The translations under genes and the position numbers were made by a program. This document shows, piece after piece, positions 23,891-59,561 of a stretch of DNA of 64,000 nucleotides. Each line of letters begins with the position of its first letter. Position 1 is the stretch's first letter. The stretch comes from Jatrophihabitans sp. GAS493. GTDB lineage: Bacteria; Actinomycetota; Actinomycetes; Mycobacteriales; Jatrophihabitantaceae. The notes beneath the pieces are model-generated. The model had not been told where the DNA came from. It did not search any database and saw nothing but the letters and a program-made list of their open reading frames with translations. The stretch lies in assembly GCF_900230215.1 (NCBI RefSeq), contig NZ_LT907982.1:3396001-3460000 (forward strand), read 5' to 3'.

Positions 23891-26071
<2,181 letters not shown>

Positions 26072-26077
26072 GCCCCC

Positions 26078-26100
26078 ACGGTACGGCGCACCTCTGACAT
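26078..26100 (-). promoter_or_regulatory. RecA-NDp/PafBC-like promoter of uvrB
   Basis: Minus strand ATGTCAGAG-N8-TACCGT against TTGTCRGTG-N8-TAnnnT: 7 of 9 upstream positions match with exact spacing, and the transcript would start on the uvrB ATG. It fills the 32-nt gap between cytX and uvrB, giving uvrB its own promoter. Confidence 0.5.
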
Positions 26101-26103
26101 CGG

Positions 26104-27630
26104 TCAGTGATCGGGGGCGACGCTCACCGATAGCGAACGGGAAGTCGAACCCGAAGTCGAACCCGAAGCCGAACCGGAAGCCGAACCGGAAGCCGAACCG
26201 GAAGTCGAACCGGAAGTCGAACCGGAGCGCGGCCGGCCGGCGCTGCGGCGCATCGGCCGGCCGAGGATCAGCGTCACCAGCCCGGCGACCGCGAAGGAGG
26301 TGAGGGATGCGCTCAGCCAGGTGGGTGCGGTCCAATGCAGGAAGCCAGCGACTCCGCGCCACATGTCTGACCAGTAGCCGACGTCCCCCGGGGCGATCAG
26401 CTGGTACGCCGCGATCCCGACCAACCAGGGCAGCAGCGCGATCCAGCGGGTGCGGGCCCGCTCGGAGACGTTCCACGCGCGGCGCCCGCCGAGGAGGAAG
26501 TAGTCGGCGGCCATGACCGCGGCCAGCGGCACGAAGACCGATCCGATGATCGAGAGGAACCTGGCGTAGTCGCTGATCTGCACGACCAACGCGAGAAGCG
26601 TGGCCGCGATCCCGATGATGACGGCCAGCAGCCGTCGGTCCACCCGCGGGAGCAGATTCTGCGTAGAGGTGGCGGTGGAGTAGACGTTCGCGAACGATTG
26701 GTCCAGCTCGCGAGCGACCAGCACGGCGAATGCGATCCACCCCAGCGGGACAGCGATGAAGGCCTTGAAGATATCGGTCTGGGGGTCAGTGGCGTCGGTG
26801 CTCACCACCGTCGAGAAAGCCAGCAGGCCCAACGCGACGTAGGCGATCTGAGTGACGGCGTAGCCGGAGAGAGTGGCGACGAATGAGCTGCGGGGCGACC
26901 GGGAGTGGCGCGAGTAGTCGGCCGCCAGGGGGACCCAGGAGACCGACAGCGCGATGAGGACATCAGTGGAGGTCCAGAATCCGGACCAGGTGCCGTGGGT
27001 CAGCGACGGCATCGGGTGACGCAGCAGCTGGATGAAGAGGTAGATCGAGGCGAGCACCACCGCCGTCAGCGCGTACTTCCGTAACACCCGCACCGCACCG
27101 AGCGGGCGGATCGCCATCAACGTGCTGAGCACCCCGGCGGCGATGACGTAGGGCCAGTGCACGTCCCAAGGCAGCAGGAGCTGGGCCCCGGACGCGATGA
27201 CCACCAGTTCGAAGACTCCCCATCCGAGGCACTGAAGGAGATTCAGAACGGTGGGCAGGTAGGAGAGTTTCGCACCGAACAGCCCACGCAATAGCACCAT
27301 CGCCGGTGCCCCGGTGTCGGCGCCGGGGACGGCCGAGATCGCGACCATCAGGGTCCCGATGAATGAGCCGACGACCAGCGCGGTGAAGGCGGCAACCAGC
27401 GAGAGCTGCGGTCCGTCGACGAACGGAAAGAGGATGTAGAGCGCAGTCACCGGCCCGAGCAGGCTCACGCCCAGGTTGGCCCAGAAGGCGATCTGATCCC
27501 AGGTTCCGAGAGTGCGCGGAACCGCGCCTTCGAGCGTGATCGACGGCTCGTCGGCATTGGTTCGGGCTTCGTTCAGGTCTTCGTTCAGGGCATTGTTCAG
27601 GGAATTGTGTGCCGCTAGTTCTGTAGCCAT
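26104..27630 (-). CDS. cytX: NCS1-family transporter, probably for hydroxymethylpyrimidine (CytX)
   Basis: Plasma-membrane permease of the nucleobase:cation symporter-1 family. The 508-residue product has about 12 hydrophobic segments, with family features such as [17 protein letters not shown] near the start and [19 protein letters not shown] in the middle. A TPP riboswitch directly upstream and thiG-thiS-thiO just before it point to import of the thiamine precursor hydroxymethylpyrimidine rather than cytosine. The protein ends in a Ser/Gly/Thr/Ala tetrapeptide-repeat tail beyond the last helix. The substrate is inferred from context. Confidence 0.85.
26141..26224. repeat. Seven 12-nt tandem repeats encoding the CytX C-terminal tail
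   Basis: Plus-strand units are GAAGTCGAACCC twice, GAAGCCGAACCG three times and GAAGTCGAACCG twice. In cytX they encode seven Gly-Ser-Thr/Ala-Ser units. They end about 70 nt upstream of the uvrB start. Confidence 0.9.
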
Positions 27631-27635
27631 CAGGC

Positions 27636-27742
27636 TCTCCCTACGCCGGCATTACCCGGACAGGTTCATTCGGTCGGCGACCCAACTAGTCGCCCTCTCA
27701 GCCCGGTTGGTCCGAGCTCCCGTCTTGAGCCACCCCACGTGT
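27636..27742 (-). promoter_or_regulatory. TPP riboswitch (THI element)
   Basis: On the minus strand the conserved THI segments appear in order: ACGTGGGGTG, GGGCTGAGAGG, TGAACCTGTCCGGGTAATG and CCGGCGTAGGGAGAG. The 3' end (GTAGGGAGAG) holds the purine-rich ribosome binding region 5 nt before the cytX start, so thiamine pyrophosphate binding would be expected to block translation start. It lies between thiG and cytX. Confidence 0.95.
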
Positions 27743-27774
27743 GCCGCGGCGTGACCACTTCATTAAATCACTGG

Positions 27775-28777
<1,003 letters not shown>

Positions 28778-49151: not shown

Positions 49152-49562
49152 GTCACGCACCTCCGCGCGCCGACCCGGACAGCTCGCTCGGCCGGCTCGC
49201 CAGTGGTAGCCGATCAGTCCAGTGGCTGCGGCTGGACCGCCGCCGCAGCCTGTACGGCCGCGGCCTCTCGATCAGCCTTAGTCGCGCGGGCGCGGCTGGG
49301 CTTTCCGCCCACGGACCTAAACTGAGAACGATGACCGGGCAACTGATGGCGGGGCAGCCTTCGGTTGGACGTGCGGAATGAAGCGGATCACGGGGTTGGG
49401 AGTCTGGAAGGTAGACGGCACGCCGCAGCTGCACCGAACAGCGCCCCGGAGGGCCGGAACACCCGAGGTGTCCCTGCAACACGGCTTGCTCGTCGACAAG
49501 CTCACCGGGAGCGTTGCGGGGTCGAGCGGAGGAACTCGAGTCGACGGAGCAGACGAGCTCTA
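49152..49562. other. 411-nt gap between kynA and the accessory island; no firm gene
   Basis: I see no recognisable gene. TAAACT at 49324-49329 lies 7 nt before an ATG (49331) of a 16-codon frame, and its stop overlaps an ATG at 49378 opening a longer frame that runs into antisense of the hydratase gene. On the other strand a 32-codon basic Ala-rich frame (49214-49312) starts with GTG. None has a known match. This is the left boundary of the island, so a truncated host gene is possible. Confidence 0.4.
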
Positions 49563-50372
49563 TTACTTATCCTTGAAAATAGGGTCTCGCTTTTCGGCGA
49601 AGGCTAACGGGCCTTCCTTGGCGTCGTCGCTCGCAAAGGTCTCTATCCCGATGAGCGTCTCGATATCGAAAGCCTGTTGTTCCGGCAGCGCTTCACTGGC
49701 ACGCATCGCACGCAGGATGTTGCGCACGGCCACCGGACCGTTCCGCACGATCAACCCTGCAAGTTCACGTGCCTTCGCCATCGCTTCGCCGTCCGGCACG
49801 AGGTGGCCGATGAGACCATATCGATAGGCCTCCTCCGCCCGCACCTGGCGCCCGGTCATAAGCCAGTCCGCGGCGACGGTGTATGGCACCTGCCGCGGCA
49901 ACCGGACTGCGGAACCAGCCATCGGGAAAAGGCTCCATTTCGGCTCAGTGAGGCCAAATATCGCGCCCTGCGCGGCAACGCGGATATCAGACGCGATAAC
50001 AAGCTCAGTTCCGCCGGCAAGCGCGTACCCCTCCACCGCGACGATAAGCGGCTTGTTAAGGCGGTATCCCTTGAGAAACATCTTGAGGTTTCGCGGATCG
50101 AAGATACCCGTTGATTCACGCGCCGCCTTCGTGACCTCGTCGGCAGGCTCTCCGCCGGCCAGATACTTTAGGTCAGCGCCAGCGCTGAAGTCACCGCCGG
50201 CGCCGGTGAGAATAACGGCGCGCACGGCGTCGTCATCGTTCGCTCGCTGCCAGGCGTCCGCCAAAAGCTGCGACATCTGCGGCGAAATCGCGTTTCTTGC
50301 CTCGGGTCGATTCATCGTTACGACGAGGATTCCGCCGTCCTGCTCGACGAGAGCGTGGGGTGTTTGGGTCAT
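49563..50372 (-). CDS. Enoyl-CoA hydratase/isomerase (crotonase) family protein
   Basis: Crotonase-fold enzyme, probably hydrating an enoyl-CoA. From the ATG at 50372 (MTQTPHALVEQDGG) it has 269 residues. The oxyanion-hole segments are GAGGDFSAGADLKYL and EGYALAGGTELVIASDIRV; the second catalytic region is IFGLTEPKWSLFPMAGSAV, with one Glu in the usual place, as in many EchA-type proteins. It is the last gene of the minus-strand island pathway but lies 470 nt after the synthetase gene, so it may have its own promoter. Confidence 0.88.
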   Translation of the reverse strand: MTQTPHALVEQDGGILVVTMNRPEARNAISPQMSQLLADAWQRANDDDAVRAVILTGAGGDFSAGADLKYLAGGEPADEVTKAARESTGIFDPRNLKMFLKGYRLNKPLIVAVEGYALAGGTELVIASDIRVAAQGAIFGLTEPKWSLFPMAGSAVRLPRQVPYTVAADWLMTGRQVRAEEAYRYGLIGHLVPDGEAMAKARELAGLIVRNGPVAVRNILRAMRASEALPEQQAFDIETLIGIETFASDDAKEGPLAFAEKRDPIFKDK

Positions 50373-50842
50373 CTCAGTATGAATCCTGCTTACTTTCTGG
50401 GCGACTGGATAGCAGCGGTCATCTGTGCCACGCATCGTGGCGGAGAAACGGAGATGTGAGCATCTCGTTAACTCGGCGACTGGGAAGGTGCTCTCGGGAC
50501 AACCGGCGCAGTTGACGTGAACCGCCCAGGCACATCACCACCGCAGCCGGACGAACTCCGTCGAGGTTGACGTCGGAAGCTCCCGGCGGCAAGCGCAAAA
50601 CGCGACGGCGTCGAGGTCGCCTAAGGCGCGCGAAGGACGTGCGTCCATGTTGGAACTTGATCAGCGAAGTAGTCATTTGCGCTGCTCGGCAATCGATACG
50701 AAGCGCCGCCAGTGGATCGAGATCATGAGCTGGGCCATGACGACATCTCGAGTTGTGACGGCTAGCCTGGCGCTCCGAGGAGCCGAGTTCACCGGACACG
50801 ACGCCTTCTGATGGCCTGGCCGCAACACGGCGCCTCTTACCG
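50373..50842. other. 470-nt non-coding gap inside the island
   Basis: No gene recognised. A minus-strand open frame across it is Arg-rich and has no family features. The right part is unlike the tightly packed genes upstream, and the gap may mark a deletion or an older insertion site. The hydratase promoter is presumably in the left part. Confidence 0.4.
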
Positions 50843-52462
50843 TCACGACGCGCTTGACTTGTCGACGATTCGACTGGTGAACAGTTCACGCGCCCATGCG
50901 TAGTCTGCCTTCGCCGCCGGAGATCGCCGGATCTCATCCACCACGACAAGATCGCGGGGTACCTTGTAGCCGGCCAGCTGCCTTCGGAGGTACTCCTGGA
51001 GGCCGTCCAGAGTCAACGTGGCGCCCGGCCGCAAACTCACTACGGCGGCGACGACGTTGCCGTATCTGACGTCACGAACCCCGACAACAAGGGCATCGAA
51101 GACTGCCGGGAGCTCTTTCAGCGCCGTTTCCACCTCGTCGGGGAAGACCTTCTCGCCGCCGGTGTTGATCGCCAACGAACCGCGGCCGAGAAGCAGGAAG
51201 GTGCCGTCCGCATTGCGGATTCCCTTGTCGCCGGGAAGCACCCAGCGCTTGCCGCTGGCGTCGACCCGAAAGGTCTCCGCGGACTTCACCGGGTCGTTCC
51301 AATACCGATTCGCCGTCGGACCGCAGACGCCGACGAAGCCTTCTTCCCCCACGGCCGACTGGGTAAGGTCGTCCCGCAGGATGTCGACGCGTTCGGTGAT
51401 CGGAAGCTTGGGAATGGCGGAGTCGTCAGGTGAGGTGGTCGTGGTCGTGCAGGCGGCACCGATCTCCGAGCCGCCGAAGCTGTCGATGATGGTCACGTGC
51501 GGGAGGTGCTTGCGCAGTTCCGCCCGGGTTGAGGGCGAGAGCACGGCGCCGCCGGTGCCGATAGCATTCAGTTTGGACAAGGTCCACCGCTCGGGGTTGC
51601 GCTCCAGCGCGTCCGCTAACGGCTTGGCCATAGCGTCACCGACGAGGGCGATGACGTTGACCCTGAGCACCTCGGCGGCGTCGAGGAGCTTCTCGGGGTC
51701 GTACTTCCGCCCGGTCCAGACCGTGGCCGTTCCGGCGAGTACCCACGCCCGCAACATGGCCCACTGTCCGTTGCCGTGCATAAGCGGTGCGACCGCCATC
51801 ACTGCGGGGACCTCTTCGGTGAGCTGTTGGGCGATCGTGGTCGGATCCGTCGCACCGATGCCGCCGGTGGCCCATCCGTAGGCGATGGCGCCCTCGACGA
51901 GATCCGGCTGCGTCCAGATGACGCCCTTGGGCATCCCTGTCGTGCCGCCCGTGTAGAGCATGTACTCGTCGACGCTGTCACGCGGCGGGAAATCGCGCTC
52001 GGAGCTGGCCTCGGACATCAGGACGTCCAGGCTCGTGTCGGTCGGAGCATCCTGGTCGAGATAAAGAACACGAGCGCCCGTTCCGGCCTGTCCGAGGGCT
52101 TGCGTCAACGCCGCTTCGAACTCGGCCTCGGCGATCACAACAGAAGATTCGCTGTCCCTGAGTACGTATGCGATCTCCGGAGCCGTGTAGCGATAGTTGA
52201 CGTTCACGAACAGCGCGCCCAGCTTGAAGCAACCCACCATGATGGCGAGCCACTCGGCACGGTTGTGCGCGAGGACGGCAACTCGGTCACCGGCCCCGAC
52301 GCCGAGATCCTGCAGAACGTGCGCAAGCCGATTACCGCGGTCTTCAAGTACACCGTAGGTGTACTTGGTGACCGCGATCCCGTCCGAGGCCGCAACCGCG
52401 ACGCGGTCAGGGGCGAGGTCGGCGACCGCGTCGGTGATCGACGCAAAGTTGAAAGTATTCAC
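50843..52462 (-). CDS. Acyl-CoA synthetase (FadD17/FadD19-like)
   Basis: AMP-dependent synthetase that activates a carboxylic acid to its CoA thioester. The 539-residue product has the P-loop MLYTGGTTGMPKGVIW, FGGSEIGAACTTTT (A5 region), LLGRGSLAINTGGEKVFPDE (A7-A8) and a C-terminal IRRSPAAKADYAW with the catalytic Lys. INTGGEKVFPDEVE is typical of mycobacterial FadD17/FadD19, which activate steroid side chains, but the substrate here is unknown. It begins 23 nt after the thiolase-fold gene at 52486. Confidence 0.88.
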   Translation of the reverse strand: MNTFNFASITDAVADLAPDRVAVAASDGIAVTKYTYGVLEDRGNRLAHVLQDLGVGAGDRVAVLAHNRAEWLAIMVGCFKLGALFVNVNYRYTAPEIAYVLRDSESSVVIAEAEFEAALTQALGQAGTGARVLYLDQDAPTDTSLDVLMSEASSERDFPPRDSVDEYMLYTGGTTGMPKGVIWTQPDLVEGAIAYGWATGGIGATDPTTIAQQLTEEVPAVMAVAPLMHGNGQWAMLRAWVLAGTATVWTGRKYDPEKLLDAAEVLRVNVIALVGDAMAKPLADALERNPERWTLSKLNAIGTGGAVLSPSTRAELRKHLPHVTIIDSFGGSEIGAACTTTTTSPDDSAIPKLPITERVDILRDDLTQSAVGEEGFVGVCGPTANRYWNDPVKSAETFRVDASGKRWVLPGDKGIRNADGTFLLLGRGSLAINTGGEKVFPDEVETALKELPAVFDALVVGVRDVRYGNVVAAVVSLRPGATLTLDGLQEYLRRQLAGYKVPRDLVVVDEIRRSPAAKADYAWARELFTSRIVDKSSAS

Positions 52463-52485
52463 TCGCTGCTACCCCCCGCGTGTTC

Positions 52486-53631
52486 TCACATCGGTTCCGA
52501 ATGGAACGCGACCATGGCGAAGTACTGCGAGCCGCCACCATATGCGTGCCCGATCGACGTGCGTGCACCGTCGATCTGGTGGTCGCCCGCGCAACCGCGC
52601 ACCTGATTCGCCGCCTCGATCACGCGGATCATGCCGGAGGCTCCGATCGGATTCGAGGACAGGACGCCGCCGGACGGGTTCAAGGGGAAGTCCCCGCTCA
52701 TTTCCGTCGCATTCTCCTCGACCATGCGCCACCCGTCTCCGATTGGCGCGATGCCGAACGCCTCCAGCCAAATCGGCTCGAACCAGCTGAAAGGTACATA
52801 GAGCTCCGCAACATCGATCTGTGTGCGCGGATCAGTAATGCCCGCCTGCCGGTAGACGTCCCTCGCGCAGTCGACAGCGGCCTGCGGACGCACCGGGTCC
52901 CGGCCAGGGAACGAGCCAAGTTCGGTGCGTACCGAGGTGCCCGCAACCCACGCCACCGGCTTGGTCGCCCGCAGGCCACCGGCCTCGTCTGTGATTACGG
53001 CCGCTGCGGCACCATCGGACGAGGGACACGACTCGAGGAAGCGGATCGGCTCCCAGAGCATCGGGGAGTCGCGCACCTGTTCTTCCGTGATTTCGGCGAG
53101 CTTGAGATGTGCGTAGGGGTTCTTCAGCGCGTTAAGGCGGTCCTTCACGGCAACCTTCCAGCCGATATGCTCCGGCGCTCCCGTCTCCTCGATGAAGGAG
53201 CGCACCCACGGCGCGAAGTAGCCGCCGGCACCGGTGCCGCGACTTCGCCCGGCAGACAGGCCCCACTGCGCGTTCCCCTCGGACTGCTTCTCCCACGAGA
53301 CGGTCAACACCCGCTTGAAGACACCCGAACTCACCAGGTGCGACGCAGCGATGAAGGCCGAGCACCCCACGGAGCCCGCGGTGTGTACTCGCAGCAGCGG
53401 CTTGCCGTTGGCGCCGAGCGCATCGGCGAGGAAGAGCTCTGGCTGCACGACGCCCTCGAACGCATCCGGAGCCTTGCCGATGACTACGGCGTCGATATCA
53501 CCCCATGCCGTCTCGGCATCGTCGAGGGCCCGCTGCGCTGCCTCGCGAACGAGACCGGGCATCGAGAGATCGTGCCTGGCCCTTTTATGGTGGGTCTGCC
53601 CGGTGCCCACGACTGCAACCCGCTCAGCCAT
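52486..53631 (-). CDS. Thiolase-fold protein without catalytic Cys and His (subunit B)
   Basis: Thiolase-superfamily protein of 381 residues, close to lipid-transfer (SCP-x/Ltp) types. It starts RVAVVGTGQTHHKR. The nucleophile region reads VHTAGSVGCSAFIAAS: aligned with NACATGSTAL the Cys position is Gly86, and a Cys appears four residues later. The usual GGxxxxGHPxGATG is GGVLSSNPIGASG, with Asn for the catalytic His. A normal Claisen reaction is therefore unlikely; Ltp-type retro-aldol cleavage with an OB-fold partner is a known alternative. Its ATG overlaps the stop of the previous thiolase-fold gene (TGATG). Confidence 0.82.
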   Translation of the reverse strand: MAERVAVVGTGQTHHKRARHDLSMPGLVREAAQRALDDAETAWGDIDAVVIGKAPDAFEGVVQPELFLADALGANGKPLLRVHTAGSVGCSAFIAASHLVSSGVFKRVLTVSWEKQSEGNAQWGLSAGRSRGTGAGGYFAPWVRSFIEETGAPEHIGWKVAVKDRLNALKNPYAHLKLAEITEEQVRDSPMLWEPIRFLESCPSSDGAAAAVITDEAGGLRATKPVAWVAGTSVRTELGSFPGRDPVRPQAAVDCARDVYRQAGITDPRTQIDVAELYVPFSWFEPIWLEAFGIAPIGDGWRMVEENATEMSGDFPLNPSGGVLSSNPIGASGMIRVIEAANQVRGCAGDHQIDGARTSIGHAYGGGSQYFAMVAFHSEPM

Positions 53632-54650
53632 CAGCGCGCCTCCAACATCGCAACAAGGTTCTGCTGCAACGCCTGTCCGCCGGCGGCGTGCGCGATGGCT
53701 CGGCGCGCCGAGCCGTCCCGGATGCGGGCAGCGGCCTCGATGAATCGAATCAGTCCGGTGGCCATCACCGGGTTCGTGATGAGCGGCCCCCCCGAGGAAT
53801 TCACGCTCGCCGAATCAGGAATGCCGAGCGCAGCGCGAAGGATAAGCTCCTGGGCAGTCGAGGTCGCGCAGAGCTCGGCGACGTCGAGGGGACCGCCGTC
53901 GTAGCCGGCCTTGCGAGCAGCGAGGGTCGACGACACCGAGGTTGCAAGGTCGCGGAAACCGGGTAGATGCGCCTCGACGCGATGGTCGATCCCGCTGATC
54001 CACACCGGGTTCGGGCTGAGCTGACGAGCCCGCTCACCGCGCGCAAGGACCACCGCCGCAGCACCGTCGCTGAACGGGGCCAAGTCGTGGTGACGCAGCG
54101 GCGCGCGCAGATAGTCGGCTGCGAGGGCCGTATCGACGTCCGCCGCACGACCGGCGCGCACTGCTACCTCCGCAAGGTCGCGCTCGGTGGCGCGCCCCGA
54201 CTCCAGAAGGGCCCGCGCCTGCAACCCTGCAAGTGAGTACGCATCCAATCCGAGGGGCGCCGAGAAGTACGGGTCACCTTGGATTGTCCAGACCTCCTCG
54301 GGTCGGCTCGACGACGACTTTCCGGACCCCATGACCAACGCGGTATCGATGTCACCGTGCAGCAACCGGATCCAGGCTTCGTAGAGTGCCCACGCACCAT
54401 CCATCTCGACGTGCGACTCGCATATGGGCGGCCACGCACCCGCGGCTTCGAGGTTGAACACAAAGGCGAACGGTCCACCAGTGAGGTAATCGCAGCTACC
54501 CGCGCACACGAATCCGACCTCGTCGCGGTCCAATCCTGCCATCGCCAACGCGTCACGAACGACGGGGAAGAGCAACTGCGTCTCGCTCCTCGTAGTCTGC
54601 GCGACGGCCGTGTGCGCGTAACCCACGATCGCAATATCGTTCGTACTCAT
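53631..54650 (-). CDS. Thiolase-fold protein without catalytic Cys and His (subunit A)
   Basis: Second, shorter thiolase-superfamily protein (339 residues). It starts IAIVGYAHTAVAQTTRSETQ and keeps the fold features LGLDAYSLAGLQARALLE and LAPFSDGAAAVVLARGER. At the nucleophile it reads ICESHVEMDGAWALYEA, with Glu82 where Cys is expected, and the His motif is GGPLITNPVMATG with Asn for His. Paired paralogs of this kind (as in mycobacterial ltp3/ltp4) are found with DUF35 proteins. It overlaps the zinc OB-fold gene by 4 nt and the next thiolase gene by 1 nt, suggesting a complex. Confidence 0.8.
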   Translation of the reverse strand: MSTNDIAIVGYAHTAVAQTTRSETQLLFPVVRDALAMAGLDRDEVGFVCAGSCDYLTGGPFAFVFNLEAAGAWPPICESHVEMDGAWALYEAWIRLLHGDIDTALVMGSGKSSSSRPEEVWTIQGDPYFSAPLGLDAYSLAGLQARALLESGRATERDLAEVAVRAGRAADVDTALAADYLRAPLRHHDLAPFSDGAAAVVLARGERARQLSPNPVWISGIDHRVEAHLPGFRDLATSVSSTLAARKAGYDGGPLDVAELCATSTAQELILRAALGIPDSASVNSSGGPLITNPVMATGLIRFIEAAARIRDGSARRAIAHAAGGQALQQNLVAMLEAR

Positions 54651-55213
54651 GCGAGATACCCTCGGTAGACCGACTCGTCGGCATCGGGCTCACCTGTCGG
54701 TGTGAAGCACTCGATGACTCCGTGAATCAGACCCCACCCGCGGCTGGTGATACCCGCTGTCGTTCGCTCCTCCACCGGTCTCCAGATCGCCTTCACTCGC
54801 ATGCCCGCGCGCAGCTCCGCGTGCGGCACGCCCGAGATGTCCTGACCCGACTCAAGTCCCACGAGGACGCTGTCCGCACCGTCGAGACGCACAGAGGCAT
54901 AGACGAAGGGCTCGGTCGCCGACTGCCCCGGGTACTGGACCGGATGGATGATGCTGAAGCCGGTTATGACGCCGCGGTCGGAGACTTCAACCTCGTTGTC
55001 GCTGGTCGTACCGATGAGGCAGAGTACGCAGAATCCCTTGCCAGGAACATAGACGCGTGAGCAGGACGGACACTTGTGGCCCACAATGCGCCCCTGCAGT
55101 AGCGCCGCAGCGTAACGCTGTAGCTCCTCGGTCAGTTCCTCCTCGTAGTGAAGAGTGATCGGCGTGGGTAGCAGATGCACTCGTGAGTCCCTCGCTGGCT
55201 TCGCCTCAGTCAC
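54647..55213 (-). CDS. Zn-ribbon OB-fold (DUF35) protein
   Basis: Nucleic-acid-binding-like OB fold that in acyl-CoA pathways bridges thiolase or hydratase subunits. The 188-residue product has the rubredoxin-like zinc ribbon HKCPSCSRVYVPGKGFCVLC (four Cys, about residues 48-66) and an OB-fold domain (TGFSIIHPVQYPGQSATEPF to about 165). It overlaps the cysteine-free paralog upstream and the thiolase-fold gene downstream by 4 nt each. Specific role inferred from the family. Confidence 0.87.
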   Translation of the reverse strand: MTEAKPARDSRVHLLPTPITLHYEEELTEELQRYAAALLQGRIVGHKCPSCSRVYVPGKGFCVLCLIGTTSDNEVEVSDRGVITGFSIIHPVQYPGQSATEPFVYASVRLDGADSVLVGLESGQDISGVPHAELRAGMRVKAIWRPVEERTTAGITSRGWGLIHGVIECFTPTGEPDADESVYRGYLA

Positions 55214-55674
55214 GCCGGCACCCAGTACGCGATGTCATCGATCCGTCCGATTCGCTGGTCTTTCCACTGCGGCGACACCCGCATGCCTGTGCTCATCCGC
55301 TCCGGGGAACCAACGTCGACGAGATGCACAATTGTGGTGGTCGCCCCCTCGGGGCGTAGCTGCGCGAACGCGAATGGCCGCTCAAGCAGGTGCACGCTCT
55401 GCGGCTGCGCCACCCAGGTCCACGACTCGACGGTGGCGGTAGGGCCGACCTCCACCAATTCGCCGCTCAAGGGCTCTCCATCGACCGGATCCCACTCGGT
55501 TGGTGGGACTAGGACCCGACCGTCGTCCGTTCGCGCGCCGAGCAGTCGCATCTCCATCAGCGCATCCGCGAAGGCGCCGACCACAGGCCCGAGGGACCGC
55601 ACATATGGGAACTCAAGACGTTCCGAGACGCGAATCTGCTCGACCGCCGCCTCCGAGGTGACGATGCCAGTCAT
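55210..55674 (-). CDS. OB-fold (DUF35-like) protein that has lost its zinc ribbon
   Basis: A 154-residue relative of the next protein with no cysteine at all. The ribbon region is LLGARTDDGRVLVPPTEWDP, aligning with the four-Cys ribbon of its neighbour but with the Cys positions taken by Thr, Asp and Gly. The OB part (SWTWVAQPQSVHLLERPFAF, GMRVSPQWKD) is kept. It overlaps the synthetase gene and the zinc paralog by 4 nt each. It may be a structural partner making a heteromeric scaffold. Confidence 0.82.
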   Translation of the reverse strand: MTGIVTSEAAVEQIRVSERLEFPYVRSLGPVVGAFADALMEMRLLGARTDDGRVLVPPTEWDPVDGEPLSGELVEVGPTATVESWTWVAQPQSVHLLERPFAFAQLRPEGATTTIVHLVDVGSPERMSTGMRVSPQWKDQRIGRIDDIAYWVPA

Positions 55675-57236
55675 CCGACAACTCGCTCGCCGGCCCAGAA
55701 CTGGGCACGCAATGTCTTTTTGTCAGGTTTACCAAGGGCGGTGACAGGTATCGATTGGACCTCGATTATTCTTTTCGGCGCCTGTACCGGACCCTTCGAG
55801 TCGCGGACGGCGTGGGTCATCCGCTCGGCGGTGGCATCGTCGAGGACAAAGCCATCGCGGAGGATCACCAGCGCCGTGACGGCTTCGCCCCACTTATCAT
55901 CTGGTGTACCGATCACCGCGACCCGAGCGACCGCTGGATCGGCTGCGATGATGTCTTCGACCTCACGTGGATACACATTGAAGCCACCAGTGACAATCAT
56001 GTCCTTCGTGCGGTCGACGATGTGCCAGAAGCCATCATCGTCCTCGCGTGCAATGTCTCCGGTGTGCAACCACCCGCTCTCCCGAAATGTCTCCGCCGTG
56101 ACCTCGGGGCGGTTGTGGTACCCAGCGGCAAGCAGTCCGCCAGCAACGCAGATCTCCCCAGGCTCACCCACTGGCACAGTTCCCCCGTCCGATCCGAGGA
56201 GCGCCGACATCACGAAGGGCGACGGGCGCCCGCAGGAGGTGAGGCGAGACGCCGGGCCGAGGTGGTCCGCGCGAGAGAAATAGGTGACCACCATCGGCGC
56301 CTCGGATTGACCGTAGACCTGCGCGAAGATAGGACCGAAGCGTTCAAGCCCCTCCGCTAGGCGAGACGGATTCATCGGGGACGCGCCGTAGTAGACCGTC
56401 TCGAGGGAGGTGAGATCCCTCGTGTGCGAGTCCGGGTGGTCCAGAATTGCATAAATCATCGATGGAACCAGGAATGTCACGTTGATGCGTTCTTGCTCGA
56501 TTGCCCGCAACACCGCGGAGGGGTCGAACGTCGGCAGGACGATCGAGGTGCCACCGGTCAGCAGCATAGGGAGAAAGAACGAGGCGCCAGCGTGTGAAAG
56601 CGGCGTGCAAAATAGGAACCGCCCCTGCGCGGGCCACTCCCATTCGGCCAGCTGAATCTTCGTCATCTCGGTAATGACGCGGGCGTTGACGACGACCCCT
56701 TTCGGGGTGCCAGTGGTGCCGCCTGTATATCCGTAGGAGAGCACCTGGTCCTCGCCGTAAGGCGTGATCTCGATCGGAGCCGGGGGGTACCCGTCGGCGA
56801 GGGCGTTGAGATCGGTGCCGAGCGATGCCGGGCCAATCGTCAGCACCTGCAGCTTCGGGATCCGGGCAACAAGCGCCTGCGCGTGCTCGGCGAAACTCGG
56901 GTCGATAATGACAGTGGTGGCGCCGCAATCGGTGAGGACGAAGACGTGGTCGTCCAAAGAAGCCAACGGATGCAGCGCAACGCGACATACGCCACGCACC
57001 CATCCGACGCCCATCACATAAAGGACCTCCGGTACGTTCTTCGCTAAAATCGCGATGGTGGAGAACGGTCCAACACCCGCCGCTTCGAGGGCCTGCACGT
57101 ACTGCGAAGTGCGTCTCAGCATGTCTGCCCCGGTGACGGTCCCACCACCGGCCTGCATTACGTTATCGCTCTTGTAGCGCTTGAGTGCTGCGATGAGAAT
57201 GTGGCCGACGTGTGCGGGATATGCAGCCTGAGCCAT
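55671..57236 (-). CDS. Acyl-CoA synthetase, first gene of the island operon
   Basis: AMP-dependent acid-CoA ligase of 521 residues. P-loop YGYTGGTTGTPKGVVV, A5 region YGQSEAPMVVTYF, A7 HTGDIAREDDDG, A8 MIVTGGFNVYPREVEDI and the catalytic Lys in PVTALGKPDKKTLR are intact. The substrate is unknown. The ATG lies 6 nt after a TAGCAT -10 box, predicting a leaderless start of the operon. An inverted-repeat operator sits next to the -35 box. The next gene overlaps by 4 nt. Confidence 0.88.
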   Translation of the reverse strand: MAQAAYPAHVGHILIAALKRYKSDNVMQAGGGTVTGADMLRRTSQYVQALEAAGVGPFSTIAILAKNVPEVLYVMGVGWVRGVCRVALHPLASLDDHVFVLTDCGATTVIIDPSFAEHAQALVARIPKLQVLTIGPASLGTDLNALADGYPPAPIEITPYGEDQVLSYGYTGGTTGTPKGVVVNARVITEMTKIQLAEWEWPAQGRFLFCTPLSHAGASFFLPMLLTGGTSIVLPTFDPSAVLRAIEQERINVTFLVPSMIYAILDHPDSHTRDLTSLETVYYGASPMNPSRLAEGLERFGPIFAQVYGQSEAPMVVTYFSRADHLGPASRLTSCGRPSPFVMSALLGSDGGTVPVGEPGEICVAGGLLAAGYHNRPEVTAETFRESGWLHTGDIAREDDDGFWHIVDRTKDMIVTGGFNVYPREVEDIIAADPAVARVAVIGTPDDKWGEAVTALVILRDGFVLDDATAERMTHAVRDSKGPVQAPKRIIEVQSIPVTALGKPDKKTLRAQFWAGERVVG

Positions 57237-57242
57237 GGCCGG

Positions 57243-57272
57243 ATGCTACCTACACGGATCCCGGATAGTCAA
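57243..57272 (-). promoter_or_regulatory. Promoter of the acyl-CoA operon
   Basis: Minus strand TTGACT (57267-57272), 18 nt, TAGCAT (57243-57248), 6 nt, then the ATG of the synthetase gene. Transcription would start on the ATG. The -35 shares its first base with the adjoining palindrome. Confidence 0.6.
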
Positions 57273-57285
57273 CCAACTGGTTGGT
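57272..57285. promoter_or_regulatory. Palindromic operator next to the -35 box (TetR-type candidate)
   Basis: ACCAAC-TG-GTTGGT: perfect 6-bp arms with a 2-nt centre, abutting the -35 of the operon promoter. Short palindromes of this form are typical binding sites of TetR-family repressors of acyl-CoA pathways. No regulator gene is beside it; the DNA further upstream is IS remnant, so the regulator may have been lost or lie elsewhere. Confidence 0.5.
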
Positions 57286-57338
57286 GATATCGACCGTGCC
57301 CACCCCTAGCCCAGATCTTTCGTGGGTCTGTCTGAACC

Positions 57339-57802
57339 GTCGACTTCCAATTCGACTCCACCACCGACGGCCGGCCGATCAAGATCGTCTCCATCATCGA
57401 CGAGCACACCCGCGAATGCCTCGGTGGGCTCGTGGAACGGTCCATCACCGCCGATGCGTTAGCCGACGAACTGGACCGCGTCGCCGCCGAACGTGGGTAC
57501 CCATCGTGCTGCGCAGCGACAACGGCCCCGAGTTCGCCTGCACCGTGATGACCGACTGGGCCGGTGAACGGATCGGGCTGTCGTTCATCCCACCCGGCGA
57601 ACCCTGGCGCAACGGCTATGTCGAGTCATTCAACTCCCGGGTCCGCGATGAATGCCTGAACATCAACGTCTTCTGGTCGCTGCCCCACGCCCGCGTCGTG
57701 ATCAGCGATCGGAAGGGGGAATACAACGAAAATCGGCGGCACTCGGCTCTGGGCTACCAAGCCCCGGCCCGGTACGCTGCCATCTGCACCCACCGAAACT
57801 GA
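57339..57802 (+). pseudogene. IS3-family transposase remnant (truncated and frameshifted)
   Basis: Integrase core of an IS3-type OrfB. The first part reads VDFQFDSTTDGRPIKIVSII and continues as EHTRECLGGLVERSITADA; after GYP near 57500 the frame shifts by one deleted base and continues IVLRSDNGPEFACTVMTDWA and NGYVESFNSRVRDECLNINV, ending near QAPARYAAICTHRN. The three catalytic acidic residues (VDF, SDNGPE and ESFNSR) remain, but the N-terminus and left end are gone and the frame is broken. Not functional. Confidence 0.85.
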
Positions 57803-57840
57803 CTCTCACAAACCGTGGATCAATTCACGGGGTCCGGCCA
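57339..57840 (+). mobile_element. Right part of an IS3-family element, inserted into an IS256 transposase gene
   Basis: The insertion point is visible: the IS256 reading frame is normal up to 57841 (TIKTT) and changes at 57840. Read from that point, the IS end begins TGGCCGGACCCCGTG, so the plus strand ends in CA, as expected for 5'-TG...CA-3' elements. The left end and N-terminal coding part are absent. Confidence 0.65.
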
Positions 57841-58149
57841 CGTGGTCTTGATCGTCACGACGGCGAAGCCGTTACGCGACCCGGCCCGCGCCTCGGGAGC
57901 GTCGGACTTGCGCTGGTAGCGGGCCCGGCCAAGGAACACCTCAACCTCGGCCTCGACCGCGGTCTGGATGATCAACCTGGCACCGAGACGGGCGACATCC
58001 TCGATGATCTCGGCCAGCTCACGCTGACCATCGAACAGGGCATCGATCTCGCCCCGGATACGGTCGGTGGGAGATACTCGTGCAGACACGGGCGTAGTCC
58101 TTCCTTCACTGAGTTGGTAGCTCTTGAAGGAACCTACGTCCGTTGTCAT
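57841..58149 (-). pseudogene. IS256-family transposase, N-terminal fragment
   Basis: The first roughly 100 residues of a mutator-type transposase: LGARLIIQTAVEAEVEVFLG, RARYQRKSDAPEARAGSRNG and VVTIKTT are the conserved N-terminal block. The frame then runs into the inserted IS3 end and stops at 57820. The catalytic domain is missing. Together with the IS3 piece it marks the right border of the accessory island. Confidence 0.82.
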
Positions 58150-58490
58150 TCACACCAGGGCTGGGACGCGACCCTACCTGTACGCGCGTGAAGACCTTCT
58201 CTGGACGCTGACCGCACCCAGACGCGGCAAAGTCGGCATCCGCTACGAAGTGGCACGAGAAGCCCGCCAGACGGGATCTACCGGCTAAGCCACACCATTT
58301 CGTTGTAGCCCAGATTCGCAGCGCAACATTCCTCTGCGCGTGAGCTACGGATCGGCAGTGCTCGACGTTTTGTCAGCACATGGATCGACTCGGACATATT
58401 GGACTTGTGTCGGATATCGATGGCCGCGCAGAACGCCGCCGGCGACTTCGGAAGCTGTCCGCAGCTGGACCTATCGGCGACCTTTTGAGA
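58150..58490. other. 341-nt gap after the IS remnants; no gene recognised
   Basis: A short open stretch ends at 58288 (…YLYAREDLLWTLTAPRRGK…) with no recognisable family and no good start; it could be the end of a gene cut by the IS elements. The rest, up to the polymerase-domain gene, shows no clear feature and is less GC-rich than the surroundings. Confidence 0.4.
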
Positions 58491-59561
58491 TCAGTCGAGC
58501 TGCTGCGGCTCGACCCCGTCAACCGTCGCTGCCGCATCGGCCCAGTTCGCCTTGTTCATCCGCGACGGCTGTACTCGCGGCGGCTCCCCCTCTTGCTTGG
58601 GGAAGTTCGGCGGGTAGGGTGCGTCGCCCAATCCACGGTCACGCTCGTCGCGGTCCGCCCAGTCGAGCAGTGGGGCGATAGAGAACGCGGCGTCATCCAT
58701 TGCCGCGTGCAAGTCGCCCAGTTTCGCGAACCGGGTCGGCATGGTGGCTATCGTGAAGTCACGCATCTCCACATCGGGGAGTTCCTCCCAGGTCAGCGGA
58801 GCCGACACCGGTGCCCACGGGAAGCCGCGGACACTATAACCACAAGCGATGGTGCGATCTCGGGCATTCTGGTTGTAGTCGAGGAAGATCTGGGTGCCGC
58901 GCTCCTCCTTCCACCAGGCGGTGGTGATCAGCTTCGGCGCGCGCCGCTCGACCTCGCGGGCGAAGGCCAGCGCGGCCCGACGCACCTCACGGAAGCCGTA
59001 GTCCGGCTCGATCCGGACGTAGATGTGGAGTCCGCGCGAACCGGAGGTCTTCGGGAAGCCGATCATGCCCAGCTCGGCCAGCACCTCGCGGACGATCTCG
59101 GCGACGATCTTCGCCTCCTCCAACCCGGTGCCCGGCTGCGGATCCAGGTCGATGCGGAGTTCGTCCGGGTGCTCGGTGTCCGCGGCGCGGGAATGCCACG
59201 GATGGAACTCGACCGTCGACATCTGCACCGCCCAGATAACACTGGCCAATTCGGTGACCCGCAGCTCATCGGCCGTGCGCCCGGAGGGGAATGCGACCTC
59301 GACGGTCTGGACCCAGTCCGGCGCTCCCTTGGGAAGCCGCTTCTGGTAGATCTTCTCGCCGCCGACGCCTTCGGGGTAGCGATGCAGCATGCATGGCCGG
59401 TCGCGCAGCGCACGGACAATGCCGTCGCCCACCGAGAGGTAGTAGTTGGCCAGATCGAGCTTCGTCTCACCACGCGTCGGGAAGTAGACCCGCTGCGGAT
59501 TGCTGATTCGCACGCTGCGCTGCCCCACCTGCAGTTCGATCGCCGCGGGCTTGGTTGCCAT
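58491..59561 (-). CDS. LigD-type DNA polymerase/primase domain protein
   Basis: Stand-alone archaeo-eukaryotic-primase-like polymerase domain (PolDom) of 356 residues, acting in end joining or gap filling. HRYPEGVGGEKIYQKRLPKG, ELRIDLDPQPGTGLEEA (catalytic Asp pair), FPKTSGSRGLHIYVRI and KLITTAWWKEERGTQIFLDY are LigD-Pol signatures. No ligase or nuclease domain is attached; the LigC-type ligase at 43.4 kb is a likely partner. The ATG is 7 nt after TAGCGT, predicting a leaderless mRNA. It is the first core gene right of the island. Confidence 0.92.
   Translation of the reverse strand: MATKPAAIELQVGQRSVRISNPQRVYFPTRGETKLDLANYYLSVGDGIVRALRDRPCMLHRYPEGVGGEKIYQKRLPKGAPDWVQTVEVAFPSGRTADELRVTELASVIWAVQMSTVEFHPWHSRAADTEHPDELRIDLDPQPGTGLEEAKIVAEIVREVLAELGMIGFPKTSGSRGLHIYVRIEPDYGFREVRRAALAFAREVERRAPKLITTAWWKEERGTQIFLDYNQNARDRTIACGYSVRGFPWAPVSAPLTWEELPDVEMRDFTIATMPTRFAKLGDLHAAMDDAAFSIAPLLDWADRDERDRGLGDAPYPPNFPKQEGEPPRVQPSRMNKANWADAAATVDGVEPQQLD

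Follow-up and report, generated by a model that had tools for sequence, protein, structure and literature searches.

The window analysed here, a stretch of 64,000 nucleotides (nt) of Jatrophihabitans sp. GAS493 (contig NZ_LT907982.1, positions 3,396,001 to 3,460,000), carries an operon of seven genes of acyl-coenzyme A (acyl-CoA) metabolism. The operon is proposed to be a retro-aldolase module, gained by horizontal transfer, that would act on a branched, possibly terpenoid, non-sterol acyl-CoA, a reading to which we give a probability of roughly 0.6. Its core, a pair of thiolase-fold proteins of the Ltp3 and Ltp4 types together with DUF35 proteins of the oligonucleotide/oligosaccharide-binding (OB) fold, is known and common and is not a new system. 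What is new here is its insertion, relative to a congener, in a host without detected steroid-ring genes; split OB genes, a FadD8-like head gene and a FadD19 paralogue of its own further mark this variant.

Gene content and the proposed complex

The seven intact open reading frames (ORFs) all lie on the minus strand and run from position 57236 to position 49563 of the window:

55671..57236, minus strand: FadD8L, FadD8-like acyl-CoA synthetase of 521 residues; NCBIfam FadD8 is its best match
55210..55674, minus strand: OBb, DUF35 OB-fold protein without zinc ribbon (PF01796, alignment A2, fold match)
54647..55213, minus strand: OBZn, DUF35 protein with zinc ribbon and OB fold (PF01796 and PF12172 above cut-off)
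53631..54650, minus strand: Ltp4L, degenerate thiolase-fold subunit of the Ltp4 type (PRK07937 above cut-off; predicted fold)
52486..53631, minus strand: Ltp3L, thiolase-fold, aldolase-type subunit of the Ltp3 type with a YVPF motif (PRK08313 above cut-off; alignment A3)
50843..52462, minus strand: FadD19L, FadD19-like acyl-CoA synthetase (PRK07798 just below cut-off)
49563..50435, minus strand: ECH, EchA19-like enoyl-CoA hydratase (PRK07799 above cut-off)

Overlaps of 4, 4, 4 and 1 nt (ATGA, GTGA, ATGA and TGATG), read from the sequence, chain the first five genes from FadD8L to Ltp3L, as an earlier sequence-only reading of this DNA had described. FadD19L starts 23 nt after the end of Ltp3L, and a gap of 407 nt separates it from ECH. 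Profile searches identified two AMP-binding, two OB_ChsH2_C, two thiolase-type and one ECH_1 protein, which, together with the predicted folds, confirms the two synthetases, two OB-fold proteins, two thiolase-fold proteins and one hydratase named in that reading. It had also remarked that dehydrogenases are lacking, and none of the seven genes encodes an acyl-CoA or hydroxyacyl-CoA dehydrogenase; its view that the island would cover activation and chain cleavage only agrees with this gene content. A MaoC hydratase domain was not found in the operon by family search. Judged from the start of EchA19, ECH probably begins at an internal ATG near 50372, and because of this later start and the long gap before it, it may have its own transcript. 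Promoter and terminator scans gave numbers about as in shuffles, and a single weak sigma-70-like site stands directly before FadD8L (minus strand, 57272-57243).

The proposed model starts from a branched acid that would be charged with CoA by FadD8L and/or FadD19L. The enoyl-CoA would be made by a host acyl-CoA dehydrogenase encoded outside the operon, and the EchA19-like hydratase would add water. A complex of Ltp3L, Ltp4L, OBb and OBZn would then cut the alpha-beta bond of the beta-hydroxyacyl-CoA in a retro-aldol reaction, giving a ketone or aldehyde and a shorter acyl-CoA. Within this putative complex, Ltp3L would be the catalytic subunit, using the Tyr of YVPF as base, Ltp4L would stand beside it as a degenerate subunit of the same thiolase fold, and docking of the two subunits would fall to OBb and OBZn. 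As a retro-aldol cut requires hydration and no hydroxyacyl-CoA dehydrogenase, such a reaction would explain the gene set.

Both thiolase-fold proteins pass the models of their types (Ltp3L, PRK08313, 585.9 bits against a cut-off of 514; Ltp4L, NCBIfam PRK07937, 433.4 against 419), and the same two models are passed by the mycobacterial-type Ltp3 and Ltp4 of the reference genome G054. Ltp4L scores 20.9 bits with the Pfam thiolase model, whose cut-off is 28; its AlphaFold model, with a predicted local distance difference test (pLDDT) score of 86.6, resembles PDB thiolases and the thiolase-fold aldolases 6ok1 and 9myr. In alignment A3 the nucleophilic Cys of thiolases is lost from both Ltp3L and Ltp4L, and two further positions of the FadA5 thiolase motifs are altered in both. 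All 101 Ltp3 rows have HTAGSVG in the region of the nucleophile, and a Cys is found there in 0 of 104 Ltp4 rows; these counts take in the window and some repeats of one locus, and the Ltp4 set contains one pair of identical copies. At the position of the aldolase base, Tyr (YVPF) is present in 100 of the 101 Ltp3 rows, with a gap in the remaining one. The Ltp4 rows have H (58), Q (13), C (10), S (7), Y (7), T (5), M (3) or L (1) at this position, and the Ltp4L of the window reads CATS at the Y-x-x-F position, without the Tyr. The Tyr being almost fixed in Ltp3 and mostly absent from Ltp4, the alignment suggests a fixed division of labour between the two subunits.

According to the available part of one source (PMC12329534), the Tyr is the catalytic base in the steroid aldolases Ltp2 (YDHF) and Sal (YDCY), and a DUF35 domain is their bound partner. 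The operon resembles the Ltp2-ChsH2(DUF35) and Sal-Shy(DUF35) pairs in joining a thiolase-fold aldolase to DUF35 proteins and in the Tyr of Ltp3L at Y-x-x-F. Each of those pairs has a single thiolase-fold subunit and a single DUF35 partner, where the operon encodes two unlike thiolase-fold subunits and a pair of OB proteins. The operon also lacks the MaoC domain, and the third motif residue, His in Ltp2 and Cys in Sal, is Pro in Ltp3L.

OBb reaches PF01796 with 27.2 bits against a cut-off of 27.1, and the best fold matches of its model (pLDDT 85.1) are the DUF35 chains 6ok1_B, from the Ltp2-ChsH2 aldolase, and 9myr_B; the PDB matches of OBZn are the DUF35 proteins 3irb and 6esq. Alignment A2 places OBb and OBZn on the N-terminal and C-terminal halves, respectively, of the single fused Rv3521-type OB protein that stands beside Ltp4/Ltp3 in G054, and this, with the shared PRK08313 and PRK07937 assignments, upholds the likeness to ltp3/ltp4-DUF35 sets seen from the letters alone. 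The two DUF35 domains thus stand directly upstream of Ltp4L-Ltp3L, as in relatives, but as separate genes. Among 99 scored rows of 105 (six without a match to OBb, OBZn or Ltp4L were left out), the pair is fused in 70 and split, as in the window, in 29, and the zinc ribbon of the OBZn part is present in 34.

FadD8L scores 761.4 bits, below the NCBIfam FadD8 equivalog cut-off of 875, and the next-best protein in the host genome is 34% identical to it. FadD19L falls short of the PRK07798 subfamily cut-off by 5.5 bits (537.5 against 543) and does not qualify as a FadD19 orthologue. Its identity to a paralogue in the same genome is 64%; FadD19 of G054 reaches 39%, and the best matches from searches of seven other genomes reach 36-42%. 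An order-wide search (E<=1e-130, three candidates scored per genome) found it in the host only among 397 genomes. ECH passes PRK07799 (366.4 against 316) and fails the EchA19 equivalog model (348.6 against 400).

The combination of genes, which the sequence-only reading did not recognise, proved to be recurrent. Of 29 loci outside the window, 28 show the order OBb-OBZn-Ltp4-Ltp3, and the remaining one begins at the edge of its contig. In a wider set of 96 loci, which includes 16 broader views of genomes already met in the search of the taxonomic order, the table shows the same order in 88, and the other eight are truncated by a contig edge. Such recurrence means that the grouping is not a chance association. 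The arrangement is common in Actinomycetota and is also found in Myxococcota bins; clustering of the neighbouring genes split families too finely to be useful. Similar sets occur in Actinomadura, Streptomyces and Saccharomonospora and on plasmids. Those of the Streptomyces clavuligerus and Tsukamurella plasmids likewise comprise an OB protein, two thiolase-domain proteins and one or more acyl-CoA synthetases, with an annotated crotonase in Tsukamurella. They differ from the operon in having one annotated OB protein of fused size and synthetases arranged otherwise, and their Ltp4 proteins are 47-48% identical to that of the window. The S. clavuligerus plasmid locus (L155) has its OB-thiolase-thiolase set and two synthetases near a terpene synthase gene.

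Steroid genes in the host and the likely substrate

Three sources, as far as their available parts go, describe ltp3 and ltp4 as aldol lyases that act on sterol side chains branched at C24; in Mycobacterium smegmatis FadD19 is required for the C24-branched side chain and EchA19 is non-essential (PMC6273163, PMC7807495, PMC6593523). All three cite Wilbrink 2012 as the primary ltp3/ltp4 paper. No assignment of roles to the Ltp3 and Ltp4 subunits was found in those parts of the literature; one may exist, Wilbrink 2012 lying outside the scope covered. Compared with the mycobacterial and rhodococcal sterol regulons, the operon shares the families (Ltp3/Ltp4, Rv3521-type DUF35, FadD19 and EchA19) and the OB-OB-Ltp4-Ltp3 order. 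It differs from them in that its OB domains are split, FadD19L belongs to a distinct subfamily, a FadD8-like ligase is the head gene, and searches of the host found none of the steroid-ring genes looked for.

The host genome consists of one contig and is 99.67% complete. The reference proteins used to search it came from G054; HsaC and KstD were confirmed by NCBIfam, and the others bear presumptive names, given in part by position. HsaC and KstD had no match at E<=1e-10, IpdA had none at E<=1e-40, and KshA had no close match at E<=1e-10, its best being a Rieske protein of 27% identity. For FadE26/ChsE4 the best match was 39%, against 65-70% in five control genomes; such matches (34-39%) lie at 1.68-1.71 Mb, and Pfam confirmed two of them as acyl-CoA dehydrogenases. 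No orthologue of ChsH2 was found, and the only two DUF35 OB matches in the genome are those of the operon itself, against 3 to 18 in 11 other genomes searched. As none of the searched steroid-ring genes was found, a growth-supporting sterol is unlikely as substrate, and the sterol substrate known for the core probably does not apply in this host.

The sequence-only reading had called the substrate unknown to it and had named a common operon of known substrate as grounds for dropping its proposal. For the core, both the recurrence and the reported role in C24-branched sterol breakdown go against that reading; the lack of detected steroid-ring genes, which it could not see, makes the known substrate probably inapplicable in this host. 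Moreover, FadD19L is nearer to its paralogue in a cluster of P450 and short-chain dehydrogenase/reductase (SDR) genes than to FadD19-type genes elsewhere, which points away from sterol. This paralogue sits at 1.745-1.752 Mb among CoA-transferase, SDR, alcohol dehydrogenase and P450 genes, and a similar cluster on a Mycobacterium branderi plasmid has a 50% FadD19L homologue. With moderate confidence, the substrate may be taken as a branched acyl-CoA that is, as we infer, perhaps terpenoid.

The wider distribution of the module differs within and outside the taxonomic order. All 23 other Ltp4-bearing members of the order that were tested, out of 48 such genomes found, have KshA (at least 54%) and an HsaC-like protein (at least 45%), the HsaC match of one of them (G138) being in pieces. 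Outside the order, where 40 of 80 named loci were tested and many of the genomes are metagenome bins, KshA at this level was found in 4 of 40 named genomes and a near-full-length HsaC-like protein in 5 of 40. The complete genome of IMCC26256, also outside the order, has Ltp4 without KshA and without HsaC. This loose link argues against a universal tie between the module and the 9,10-seco ring pathway.

Several observations weigh against a non-sterol retro-aldolase. The Rieske protein of the host bears a KshA_C domain, and a CYP125-like P450 of 54% identity is encoded elsewhere in the genome (L136:17967-19334, minus strand). A near relative of the module, locus L035, has FadE26-like (64%), EchA19-like (66%) and Rv3520c-like (63%) neighbours, and locus L034, which lies in the same 40-row clade of the Ltp4 tree, adjoins Ltp2 (68%), ChsH1 (50%) and ChsH2 (40%). 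As to the chemistry, the Ltp3L of the window has a Cys four residues past the lost nucleophile, absent from the other Ltp3 rows of A3, and in the same alignment the second acid-base residue of Ltp2 (Tyr344) or Sal (Cys304) has no clear counterpart in YVPF.

These P450 and neighbour genes, together with the ties of the Ltp3, Ltp4, FadD19 and EchA19 families to sterol side chains, favour a true C24-branched sterol side-chain module, with which the host would trim the chains of plant sterols and leave the rings unopened, the CYP125-like P450 starting the process. We consider this unlikely, although it is the strongest of the alternatives. It is at odds with the absence of close FadE26, ChsH2, KstD, KshA, HsaC and IpdA matches and with the divergence of FadD19L from its counterparts in other genomes and from PRK07798. 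In the 40 kb around the P450 no other sterol-cluster protein of G054 was matched, only two further weak P450s (26-27%). KstR-like sites (consensus with one mismatch allowed) number 9 against 4.39 expected, a count reached in 6 of 100 shuffles and thus not clearly above chance; one lies within the operon (52778-52791) and none near its start. No KstR2 sites were found.

The region of the host genome at 1.68-1.76 Mb (L144-L148, L138-L139) is a large catabolic cluster with ligases, acyl-CoA dehydrogenases, hydratases, a thiolase and P450s. Partly annotated by family search, it also holds a hydantoinase-type protein, the KshA_C Rieske protein and the FadD19L paralogue.

Insertion and origin of the island

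The operon lies within an island that interrupts two genes adjacent in a congener (G001), tryptophan 2,3-dioxygenase and the LigD primase-polymerase, both named by Pfam; the alignment of the congener to the window stops at 49302 and restarts at 58489. The features of the insertion are:

49303..58488, unstranded: inserted island of about 9.2 kb between the tryptophan 2,3-dioxygenase and LigD primase-polymerase genes
49212..49302, unstranded: apparent displaced copy of the LigD 3' end, aligning with the LigD 3' end of the congener
57337..57842, plus strand: insertion sequence (IS) remnant with an rve integrase core; the genome has 5 further copies of 92% identity
57867..58172, unstranded: repeat, likely a second mobile-element remnant, 83% identical to positions 4567499-4567804 of the host genome

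The LigD gene of the window has a substitute last stretch on its 58489-58590 side, and the two LigD-end copies of the window give a weak direct match to each other, equal to the best of 200 shuffles. An island at the 3' end of LigD with the apparent displaced gene end on its far side resembles the pattern that integration at the end of a gene leaves; none of the island ORFs was seen to encode such an integrase. Family searches gave no match for the ORF at 57820-58149 in the second repeat, which may be like an IS256-type transposase.

The seven genes have a third-codon-position G+C content (GC3) of 0.69-0.80, whereas 39 other ORFs of the window average 0.827 (standard deviation 0.035), a contrast that is perhaps overstated because the background ORFs were called by a GC3-favouring script. 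In the Ltp4 tree the window groups with loci L031, L032, L033 and L035 (100/99), inside the 40-row clade (100/98) and apart from four copies of the host's own family, a placement made less sure by its long end branch (0.61). A fifth, partial family copy (G002) shares 70-73% identity with three of these copies and 53% with the window, and a sixth is carried by G013. Viral contigs held no detectable Ltp4 relative. Taken together, the insertion relative to the congener, the IS remnants, the GC3 and the placement away from the family make transfer likely, and the operon was likely acquired horizontally. In one genome (G064) there are two Ltp4 copies, L115 and L116, one in the 40-row clade of the window and the other with sterol-type copies, so that these groups are paralogous.

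The same features might mark the remains of a transferred catabolic cluster, in decay and with no present function: the operon is one isolated island, IS remnants adjoin it, and Ltp4L combines its long end branch with a 12-residue deletion, although a few relatives also lack this stretch. Such decay is improbable given seven intact ORFs with translational couplings. Neutral simulation to 80% identity left stop-free ORFs in 9 of 200 runs for Ltp4L, 8 of 200 for Ltp3L and 3 of 200 for FadD19L, and the actual proteins share 69% (Ltp4L) and 71% (Ltp3L) identity with their nearest rows, a divergence split over both branches.

Elsewhere in the window, the AT skew at 26001-28000 (0.212) is unusually strong relative to the rest.

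Other chemistries and the meaning of the module

Thiolase and biosynthetic readings were rejected because the nucleophilic Cys is lost from both subunits. PhlABC and the archaeal thiolase/HMG-CoA synthase complexes likewise pair a thiolase fold with DUF35, but a biosynthetic or acyl-transfer complex forming C-C bonds is very improbable, the ligases and hydratase of the operon suggesting breakdown. A thiolase of the benzoylsuccinyl-CoA (BbsAB) type is scarcely credible: the fold and DUF35 partner of the operon proteins match 7pxp and the BbsB model finds Ltp3L, but at 106.5 bits, far under the cut-off of 750, and three FadA5 thiolase motif positions are changed in Ltp3L and Ltp4L.

For the proposed retro-aldolase module, a broader role of the family can be put forward tentatively. 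Ltp3/Ltp4/DUF35 may be a general retro-aldolase for branch-blocked acyl-CoAs, of which sterol chains would be one case; the island would have been recruited to a non-sterol, perhaps terpenoid, pathway by pairing with the local FadD19 paralogue, and Ltp4 would be non-catalytic and may set specificity. From the asymmetry between the subunits it is predicted that catalysis rests with the single subunit bearing the Tyr, that the other is a degenerate partner, and that an OB protein accompanies each. Ltp3 and Ltp4 are treated as sterol enzymes in the available parts of the literature (PMC6273163, PMC7807495, PMC6593523), and an intact module in a host where none of the searched steroid-ring genes was found is a useful test of whether the complex serves sterols alone or is a general route round branch points.

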